Assembly (NCBI GenBank): GCA_903939115.1
Contig: CAJAFV010000070.1
Coordinates: forward strand, 28,332 to 92,331
Reading direction: 5' to 3'
Source of the DNA: an uncultured Geobacteraceae bacterium
Lineage (GTDB): Bacteria; Desulfobacterota; Desulfuromonadia; Geobacterales; Pseudopelobacteraceae
DNA: 64,000 nucleotides
Positions 42,381 to 64,000 of the stretch are shown in pieces; the first letter of the stretch is position 1; the number at the start of each line of letters is the position of its first letter. Position numbers and translations under genes: made by a program. Under the pieces are notes generated by a model, which was given only the letters and a program-made list of their open reading frames with translations, ran no database searches and was not told the DNA's origin.

Positions 42381-42478
42381 GGAAGTACATCGGTCGCTGG
42401 CGGGCCGCCCGGTCTTCAAAACCGGTGGGGGGGATGAGAAATTCCCTTGGCAGGTTCGATTCCTGTGTGCTTCCGCCA
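42381..42478 (+). tRNA. selC: tRNA-Sec (UCA anticodon)
   Basis: GGAAGUAC/GUGCUUCC 8-bp acceptor stem, anticodon arm CCGGU-CUUCAAA-ACCGG with UCA anticodon, long variable arm, encoded GCCA end. Confidence 0.97.
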
Positions 42479-61786: not shown

Positions 61787-61874
61787 GGAGAGGTGTCCGA
61801 GTGGTCGATGGTGCCTGACTCGAAATCAGGTGTACGGAAACGTACCTAGGGTTCGAATCCCTACCTCTCCGCCA
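61787..61874 (+). tRNA. tRNA-Ser (CGA anticodon)
   Basis: GGAGAGG...CCTCTCC acceptor stem, anticodon arm CCTGA-CTCGAAA-TCAGG, long variable arm, GTTCGAATC T-loop, GCCA end. Confidence 0.95.
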
Positions 61875-62079: not shown

Positions 62080-62222
62080 TTACTATGTCACCGTGAATTA
62101 ACCGTTATGTCACCGTGAACCCTCCGTGACTACTCCGTGAGTGTTCTGTGAATTAACCGTTATGCTCCCGTGGCCTCACCGTTCAACCTGCGTAAAATAT
62201 CCGTTATGCCTTCGGTGCTATT
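62080..62222. repeat. Phased array of 11-bp degenerate repeats (consensus CCGTKANNNNN)
   Basis: Consecutive 11-mers from 62091: CCGTGAATTAA, CCGTTATGTCA, CCGTGAACCCT, CCGTGACTACT, CCGTGAGTGTT, CTGTGAATTAA, CCGTTATGCTC, CCGTGGCCTCA, CCGTTCAACCT, GCGTAAAATAT, CCGTTATGCCT, TCGGTGCTATT. A degenerate unit TTACTATGTCA lies at 62080-62090. Confidence 0.85.
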
Positions 62223-62415: not shown

Positions 62416-62430
62416 CGTTACCGTGTAACG
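62416..62430. promoter_or_regulatory. Palindrome copy 1 (CGTTACCGTGTAACG, inverted orientation)
   Basis: Reverse complement of CGTTACACGGTAACG; spans the stop codon of the 62418..62675 gene. Confidence 0.75.
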
Positions 62431-62675
62431 GTCAAGTAAGTATCCCATTCAGGCGTGTCAATCTGAAGAGTCTTGAGAATGGCATCATCATCTTCAATAA
62501 CAAGCCGCTCCAACATCTGCCGCCTCGTTACACGGTAACGCTGTGCAAGTCGGTTAAGAGCAAAGTGTATGCTGACAGACACCCTAGTATCAATACGCCG
62601 CTCCCCTTCGCCATTATTGCACCGTGATCTATACGCCGCTTGTCTCTCTGCGGATGTTTTAGCCATTGTGGACAC
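62418..62675 (-). CDS. Small putative DNA-binding protein (85 aa)
   Basis: MSTMAKTSAERQAAYRSRCNNGEGERRIDTRVSVSIHFALNRLAQRYRVTRRQMLERLVIEDDDAILKTLQIDTPEWDTYLTVTR; basic N-terminus and RVSVSIHFALNRLAQRYRVTRRQMLERL resembling a beta-strand plus two helices (RHH-like). Confidence 0.65.
   Translation of the reverse strand: MSTMAKTSAERQAAYRSRCNNGEGERRIDTRVSVSIHFALNRLAQRYRVTRRQMLERLVIEDDDAILKTLQIDTPEWDTYLTVTR
62526..62540. promoter_or_regulatory. Palindrome copy 2 (CGTTACACGGTAACG), intragenic
   Basis: Exact copy; on the minus strand it encodes the RYRVT codons. Confidence 0.75.
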
Positions 62676-62688
62676 CTCCCCTGAATAT

Positions 62689-62703
62689 CGTTACACGGTA
62701 ACG
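62689..62703. promoter_or_regulatory. Palindrome copy 3 (CGTTACACGGTAACG), upstream of the small gene
   Basis: Exact copy 14 bp upstream of ATG 62675 (minus strand), an operator-like position. Confidence 0.75.
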
Positions 62704-62907
62704 TAATGCATCAGGGCTACTGGTTATCGGCAATCTGAAAAAGAAAAGCCGCCCCATATTTCAGGAGCGGCCATTGAGTTATTCACAAAATAATGAAAAA
62801 GTGGATTGTCAGCAACCATTATGCAGATTCCACTGCATTTAGATAACACGAGTTAATATTAATAAATCTGTCACATATCCGTATCTCAAACTCAATAAGA
62901 ACGTGTC

Positions 62908-63075: not shown

Positions 63076-63813
63076 ATGCTAAAAAAGAAGTTTGCTGCAT
63101 TTATCGCTGTAGCATTAATTCAGCTGTCTTCAAGTGCTGCTTTTGCTGCTTTTGCTGACCTTGATTTAGTTCAAGTAGTATATGAACGTAATGGCGGCGC
63201 TGAGTATGCCACCGATCTTGGCAACATTAGGTCTGGTTTAAGTAATTACGATGTATTTAAAGATGGCGTTTGGCAGACTTATATTCCAATTTTTGCGCCT
63301 GTCAATAACCCTGCTAATTTTTCTCTTGTTTATTTTGCTTTTGATAGATCAACAAATCAACTATGGGCGACTGGCAGTTCTTACAATCAAATACCTCCAG
63401 TAATTAATGGAAGTAATGCAGGTATAGTAGGACTTAAGTCTGGCACTACAAGCATGTATTCTCTCTATAACTCACAGGGCGGTAGTTACTACACTGGCTT
63501 AACATCTAATTATAACTCTTACAAAAATAGGCTTTCAACTCCTGTTGGTTCTCTGGCAAACACCATTAATGCCGCAACACGTGCAAATACCGAAGCCAGT
63601 CTTGCTAGCTTAACCTACAGCAATACTATTACTCAGTCACTTTACTACTGGCCTGACGCAACAACCACCGTGGCATCAGAAAAAGTCGGCATGAGAGTAG
63701 CCTCTATTACCTCGTATGTCACTGTCACACCAATCCCACCCGCATTTCTGCTAATGGGTTCAGGCCTTGTTGGATTAGCTGGAATGAGGAAAAGAATTAA
63801 AGTTGAAATATAA
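63076..63813 (+). CDS. PEP-CTERM-type sorting-signal protein
   Basis: Signal peptide; C-terminal TPIPPAFLLMGSGLVGLAGMRKRIKVEI (Pro-rich motif, TM helix, basic tail). Confidence 0.85.
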   Translation: MLKKKFAAFIAVALIQLSSSAAFAAFADLDLVQVVYERNGGAEYATDLGNIRSGLSNYDVFKDGVWQTYIPIFAPVNNPANFSLVYFAFDRSTNQLWATGSSYNQIPPVINGSNAGIVGLKSGTTSMYSLYNSQGGSYYTGLTSNYNSYKNRLSTPVGSLANTINAATRANTEASLASLTYSNTITQSLYYWPDATTTVASEKVGMRVASITSYVTVTPIPPAFLLMGSGLVGLAGMRKRIKVEI

Positions 63814-63971: not shown

Positions 63972-64000
63972 CCCCCCCCCCCCCCCCCCCCCCCCCCCCC
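63972..64000. other. Poly-C homopolymer at the window end (probable assembly artefact)
   Basis: 29 consecutive C residues running to the end of the window. Confidence 0.8.

Follow-up and report, generated by a model that had tools for sequence, protein, structure and literature searches.

Why does a small gene carry the same near-palindrome upstream of its start codon, within its reading frame and across its stop codon? The locus lies in a 64,000-nucleotide stretch of DNA from an uncultured Geobacteraceae bacterium (the window), and an initial annotation had suggested either an autoregulator with intragenic operators or a mobile unit with inverted ends. We deduce, with a probability of roughly 0.7, that the gene encodes a ribbon-helix-helix (RHH) autorepressor borne by mobile elements, with predicted operators in the promoter region, within the coding sequence and at the stop.

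Three copies of a palindrome at one gene

The 15-bp sequence CGTTACACGGTAACG is found exactly at copies 2 and 3 on the forward strand and as its reverse complement at copy 1 (Table 1), and the three copies span 288 bp of the window. When up to three mismatches to CGTTACACGGTAACG were allowed, the window contained seven matches, six of which are the three copies read on both strands, while 100 shuffled windows averaged 0.97 matches and never had more than 3. The pattern CGTTACNNNGTAACG occurs only at these three places in the whole assembly of 4,763,089 bases; the copies described initially are real and far beyond chance. The arms of each copy are perfect 6-bp inverted repeats and only the three central bases (ACG or CGT) set an orientation, and the opposite orientation ascribed to copies 1 and 3 is therefore true of the centres and has no meaning for the arms.

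Translation agrees with the earlier reading that copy 2 encodes RYRVT and copy 1 encodes T-V-T-R-stop in another frame. In the predicted fold, the codons of copy 2 specify the turn that joins the pair of RHH helices. Because homologs begin with M-A-x-T, we place the start at the ATG and not at GTG 62675, which reduces the annotated protein from 85 to 82 aa and moves copy 3 from 14 bp to 22 bp upstream of the start codon.

Table 1. Coordinates of the gene, its predicted operators and neighbouring features in the window
Feature	Position	Strand	Basis and remarks
Gene, 82-aa predicted RHH autoregulator	62418..62666	-	Homolog alignment, AlphaFold model; start ATG 62666, stop TAA 62418-62420
Shine-Dalgarno GGAGG	62675..62679	-	Sequence; 8 nt before ATG 62666
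Operator copy 3 (upstream; predicted)	62689..62703	.	Exact match; 22 bp before ATG
Operator copy 2 (intragenic; predicted)	62526..62540	.	Exact match; encodes R43-Y-R-V-T47
Operator copy 1 (predicted)	62416..62430	.	Exact match; overlaps stop codon, V-T-R-TAA-CG
tRNA-Ser(CGA), probable integration site	61787..61874	+	Window gene downstream; G010 homolog likewise just downstream of its tRNA-Ser(CGA)
Terminator-like hairpin then T-run, upstream of gene on its strand	62747..62772	-	1 vs shuffle mean 0.6, weak

A predicted CopG-like fold

The protein has no significant match in Pfam, NCBIfam or PADLOC, and hence no curated family, and in PHROGs it matches, weakly, only families with no known function (best E = 0.0035). 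An AlphaFold2 model, built on 34 aligned sequences from the window and the loci, has a mean pLDDT of 85.8 with helices at residues 5-17, 31-43, 48-66 and 72-77, the second and third of which make up the RHH pair; the beta strand is unformed in this monomer. Foldseek neighbours in the PDB are mostly RHH proteins (CopG, Arc and TacA antitoxins), with MatP having the top E-value, and CopG (1b01) fits the model with an rmsd of 1.0 and a TM-score of 0.86 by target length. The Foldseek E-values are poor (>0.1; 0.3 and above) because the domain is short (45 residues). A sequence profile of the family found CopG and MatP only marginally. RHH_1 is matched by 2 of the 34 homologs (best 4.9e-5) and no curated RHH profile by the window protein itself, while NF010256 (plasmid replication regulatory protein) is matched by 22 of the 34 family members (best 5e-7) and PF10723 (RepB-RCR_reg) by 10 (best 3e-6).

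A CopG-like fold of the ribbon-helix-helix type is thus a well supported prediction, and the RHH part of the original repressor/RHH assignment is upheld by the model, its structural neighbours and the marginal profile similarity. The protein is likely to bind DNA.

Homologs and their mobile context

Genomes from the same genus and order as the window contained relatives, as did plasmids, 53 genome loci and five loci on viral contigs; a phage collection had none. A single-protein scan of genome contigs returned no relatives; an alignment-based scan then gave the 53 loci, using a YxVT peptide pattern that enriches this amino-acid motif and not its codons. The family occurs in Beta- and Gammaproteobacteria, Desulfuromonadota and one Kiritimatiellae MAG, with members in Cupriavidus, Burkholderia, Paraburkholderia, Caballeronia, Massilia, Duganella, Accumulibacter, Raoultella, Tolumonas and Geobacteraceae. 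The gene is a hypothetical protein without assigned function in the plasmid records examined, and neither this family nor a GTTAC-N3-GTAAC operator was found described in the open-access literature searched, which is weak evidence of absence.

The majority of homologs reside on mobile elements, namely IS66 ends, IS21, tyrosine-recombinase islands and small plasmids. In IS66 relatives the gene lies just inside the element end, about 95 bp from it and convergent with tnpC, and in IS21 relatives it directly follows istB. Others directly follow tyrosine-recombinase genes or stand beside a relaxase gene (L029), and the Raoultella plasmid homolog (L013) is carried by a circular plasmid of 2,653 bp. 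One IS21-type element with the gene between istA and istB is present in two genomes of different families (L005, identical to L038). We regard the family gene as one that mobile elements carry as a passenger or accessory. Its relatives resemble IS66/IS21 passenger genes by their position inside the IS66 end or next to istB; unlike these, the window copy has no nearby transposase, and for this passenger we saw no curated family or functional annotation. The window gene was not located within such an element: no IS66, IS21 or recombinase match lies within 2.5 kb of it, the contig ending 1.3 kb past the gene.

Recurrence of the sites and selection on their codons

Across homologs the shared motif generalises to the 13-bp GTTAC-N3-GTAAC (GTTACnnnGTAAC). 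We compiled a representative set of 31 divergent sequences (<80% nucleotide identity), in which 78 sites are distributed over 28 members, compared with a mean of 0.27 expected in shuffled sequences. An upstream site is present in 26 representatives, an inner site in 15 and a stop site in 22, and all three are combined in 11. Genes with upstream sites have one to three of them, placed some 30 and 60 bp ahead of the ATG, and often two about 28 bp apart. The inner site coincides in frame with the RYxVT codons, and the stop-proximal site mostly overlaps the stop at -12, often through a C-terminal V-T-x-TAA-C, or sits 4 to 15 bp past it. This recurrence at the same three positions in aligned, divergent homologs supports the suggestion of an autoregulator with intragenic operators.

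The initial annotation had named homologs lacking the palindromes at synonymous positions as evidence against its view, and we found that the operator codons are almost always retained where RYxVT itself is retained. Where RYxVT is replaced (e.g. L005, L034, L050 and L058), the inner site is lost and the outer sites are mostly kept. In 35 non-redundant genes with the motif, we compared the codons at the inner site with those of the same residues elsewhere in the same genes. Arginine is encoded by CGT in 32 of 32 cases at the inner site and in 46 of 412 elsewhere (p = 1e-27), and valine by GTA in 33/35 against 14/98 (p = 8e-18), these p-values being inflated by kinship of the homologs, for which the representative set and a within-locus test are a partial remedy. 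The corresponding values are 33/35 against 39/73 for the tyrosine codon TAC and 32/35 against 80/186 for the threonine codon ACG. Among the divergent representatives, the codons are most uniform at residues 43, 44 and 46 (0.75, 0.87 and 0.85), with 0.65 at Thr47, 0.47 at the central codon 45 and 0.23-0.5 at most other four- and six-fold codons; uniformity is also raised at Val80, the start of the stop-proximal site (GTT, 0.69). Such fixation of codons indicates that selection acts on the DNA at the inner site rather than on the peptide, as had been proposed.

Two homologs have diverged in the sequence of their sites: one has GTTAC..CTAAC at all three of its sites (L010) and another GTTAG..CTAAC at both (L012). 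Moreover, the central triplets form 33 exact pairs within loci compared with 12 expected, and none of 5000 permutations reached 33. Together, the triplet agreement and the two variants point to a single cognate binder at each locus. The motif is rare in the 19 genomes scanned, where most listed sites lie at family genes; in one genome (G004) the homolog has no sites and neither has the rest of the genome. A few additional sites directly follow an associated gene's stop codon, namely that of fic (L036), brnA (L073) and a relaxase gene (L029).

Two homologs without any operator (L007 and L008) follow, at a distance of about 30 bp, a long open frame (about 490 codons) and may represent a domesticated branch. 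Sites of the form GTTACnnnGTAAC were also seen inside TOPRIM/CHC2 primase genes (L036:848, L110:884 and L109:5605), two of them in almost matching positions shortly before the TOPRIM motif, offset from one another by about 8 nt and read in different frames. We rejected a conserved operator in primase genes, as these three loci are the only cases and the site is absent in the primase loci of the other genomes searched.

Proposed autorepression and the likely role of the inner and terminal sites

In the mechanism we propose, the small RHH protein would bind GTTAC-N3-GTAAC as a dimer and repress its own synthesis. The upstream sites would occlude the promoter, which is their natural role given that good sigma-70 promoters overlap or bracket the predicted upstream operators in three loci (L010, L012 and L013); in L013 the promoter is TTGATT-N16-TATAAT and the predicted operator falls in the spacer. 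The promoter scan was uninformative in the other loci, and in the window copy it gave no convincing candidate. The inner and stop-codon sites may be extra operators that act as roadblocks, halting RNA polymerase inside the unit and at its end. These would tighten autorepression and would insulate the passenger gene from transcription entering or leaving the host element. Roadblock or insulation is the most likely role of the inner and terminal sites, and we hold it with moderate confidence. The inner site is absent in 16 of the 31 representatives and is therefore not essential, and the upstream-to-inner spacing has no fixed helical distance, which fits independent binding and gives no positive support for cooperativity.

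More tentatively, the RHH family borne by mobile elements may use operators at stop codons and in coding sequence, its own and occasionally that of primase genes, as built-in insulation or silencing against transcription through the element. It would then be a compact matS-like site system adapted to mobile DNA, in contrast to a conventional promoter repressor.

Alternatively, the inner and terminal sites could be auxiliary operators bridged to the promoter sites by looping, as lacO2 inside lacZ is an auxiliary operator of the lac repressor. Several sites per gene at fixed gene positions, one of them intragenic, would suit such an autorepressor. However, the helical phasing of a lac-type auxiliary intragenic operator was not found in the U-U, U-I and U-D distances, which show no 10.5-bp period (Rayleigh p = 0.99, 0.56 and 0.99), the phasing of the I-D distances (p = 0.001) follows from coding constraint, and the 82-aa protein has no evident tetramerisation domain. 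The unphased upstream distances therefore disfavour rigid looping and favour roadblock or insulation, and we consider looping rather unlikely.

A structural or segregation system comparable to MatP/matS or parS, in which the site cluster nucleates an assembly that organises or maintains the element, also seems improbable, as does its corollary that autoregulation is a by-product. The matS site is GTGACRNYGTCAC, with two 5-bp arms and a 3-bp centre (PMC6907758), and the present 13-bp palindrome shares this 5-3-5 geometry. MatP has the RHH fold, is a top structural neighbour and a weak sequence neighbour in profile comparison, and some gene-carrying elements have extra sites in primase genes or just past the stops of relaxase, fic and brnA. 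Yet the half-sites differ (GTTAC here, GTGAC in matS), and the protein has 82 aa compared with about 150 aa in MatP, whose extra domains it lacks. The sites are few, within about 300 bp per gene and almost only at the family's own gene, and no ParA-like partner stands beside the window gene. The spread of matS over the Ter region has no counterpart among the GTTACnnnGTAAC sites in the genome of the window, of which three lie within 288 bp and none elsewhere.

A mobile unit with the palindromes as its inverted ends is very hard to maintain: palindromes do flank the gene on both sides and the gene does occur in unrelated elements, but identity between (near-)identical copies in different contexts runs far past the outer palindromes (to about -93 and to +344 to +3260 relative to the ATG) and stops at element ends such as -93, the inner copy is left unexplained, the window unit has no recombinase, the position of the 3'-end site varies with the C-terminus, and the IS66, IS21 or recombinase elements carrying the gene account for its mobility. 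An RNA hairpin or an attC-like or REP-like origin was rejected, since the sequence and not just the pairing is kept, several frames are used and Rfam gave no match to the palindromes.

Under the autorepressor reading, this is a protein-coding gene with codons set by the apparent binding site of its own product, an easily testable case in which the predicted operator shares its codons with the turn that links the two helices of the predicted DNA-binding domain, and also takes in the stop codon. What emerges is a regulator, widespread and so far uncharacterised, that belongs to insertion sequences, islands and small plasmids; with GTTACnnnGTAAC as its likely recognition sequence, the regulation or insulation of transposon genes becomes directly testable.

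Comparison with known systems

The family resembles the CopG/Arc autorepressors in its predicted beta-alpha-alpha fold, small size and apparent autoregulation through palindromic operators, whereas it has further predicted operators inside the reading frame and at the stop codon. The window protein further differs from CopG/Arc by an extra N-terminal basic helix (TxAERQAAYRARR) and by the lack of a Pfam RHH match. For many homologs the closest curated sequence families are CopB/RepA2 of IncFII plasmids and RepB-RCR_reg, which share the plasmid and mobile context, and this distant similarity of profile to plasmid replication repressors adds to the case for an autorepressor. The window protein has no match to NF010256 or PF10723 at E<=0.5, while many homologs match them weakly, and inspection of the open-frame list showed no replication gene beside the window copy. 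To our knowledge, an intragenic operator architecture has not been described for CopB.

No toxin gene adjoining the window gene is recognisable in the open-frame list, and the gene pair of a type II antitoxin is thus not seen. Two exceptional relatives are followed by brnT-brnA (L073, 4001-4759) and by fic (L036, 4001-5055), each with a predicted operator right after the last stop; recruitment into toxin-antitoxin units is possible there. A defence-system reading was rejected, as PADLOC gave no match. By the tests made, the window protein is no member of the MatP, CopB or antitoxin families, and operator placement within codons and at the stop appears to set its family apart.

Surroundings of the window gene

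The window copy adjoins a tRNA-Ser hotspot without a recognisable transposase. Between the tRNA gene and the window gene (62091-62204) there are eleven consecutive 11-bp units with a CCGT core, nine exact and two one base off, which are helically phased and iteron- or integrase-arm-like. A search of 39 genomes of the genus gave no other place with four consecutive CCGT units at 11-bp spacing. The contig closes with 29 consecutive C residues (63972-64000), probably an assembly artefact, which hide the sequence beyond the gene. The product of the adjoining gene (63076-63813) is a secreted protein that ends in a PEP-CTERM-like tail (weak Pfam match, E = 0.53), and a selenocysteine tRNA gene was predicted by ARAGORN at 42381-42478.
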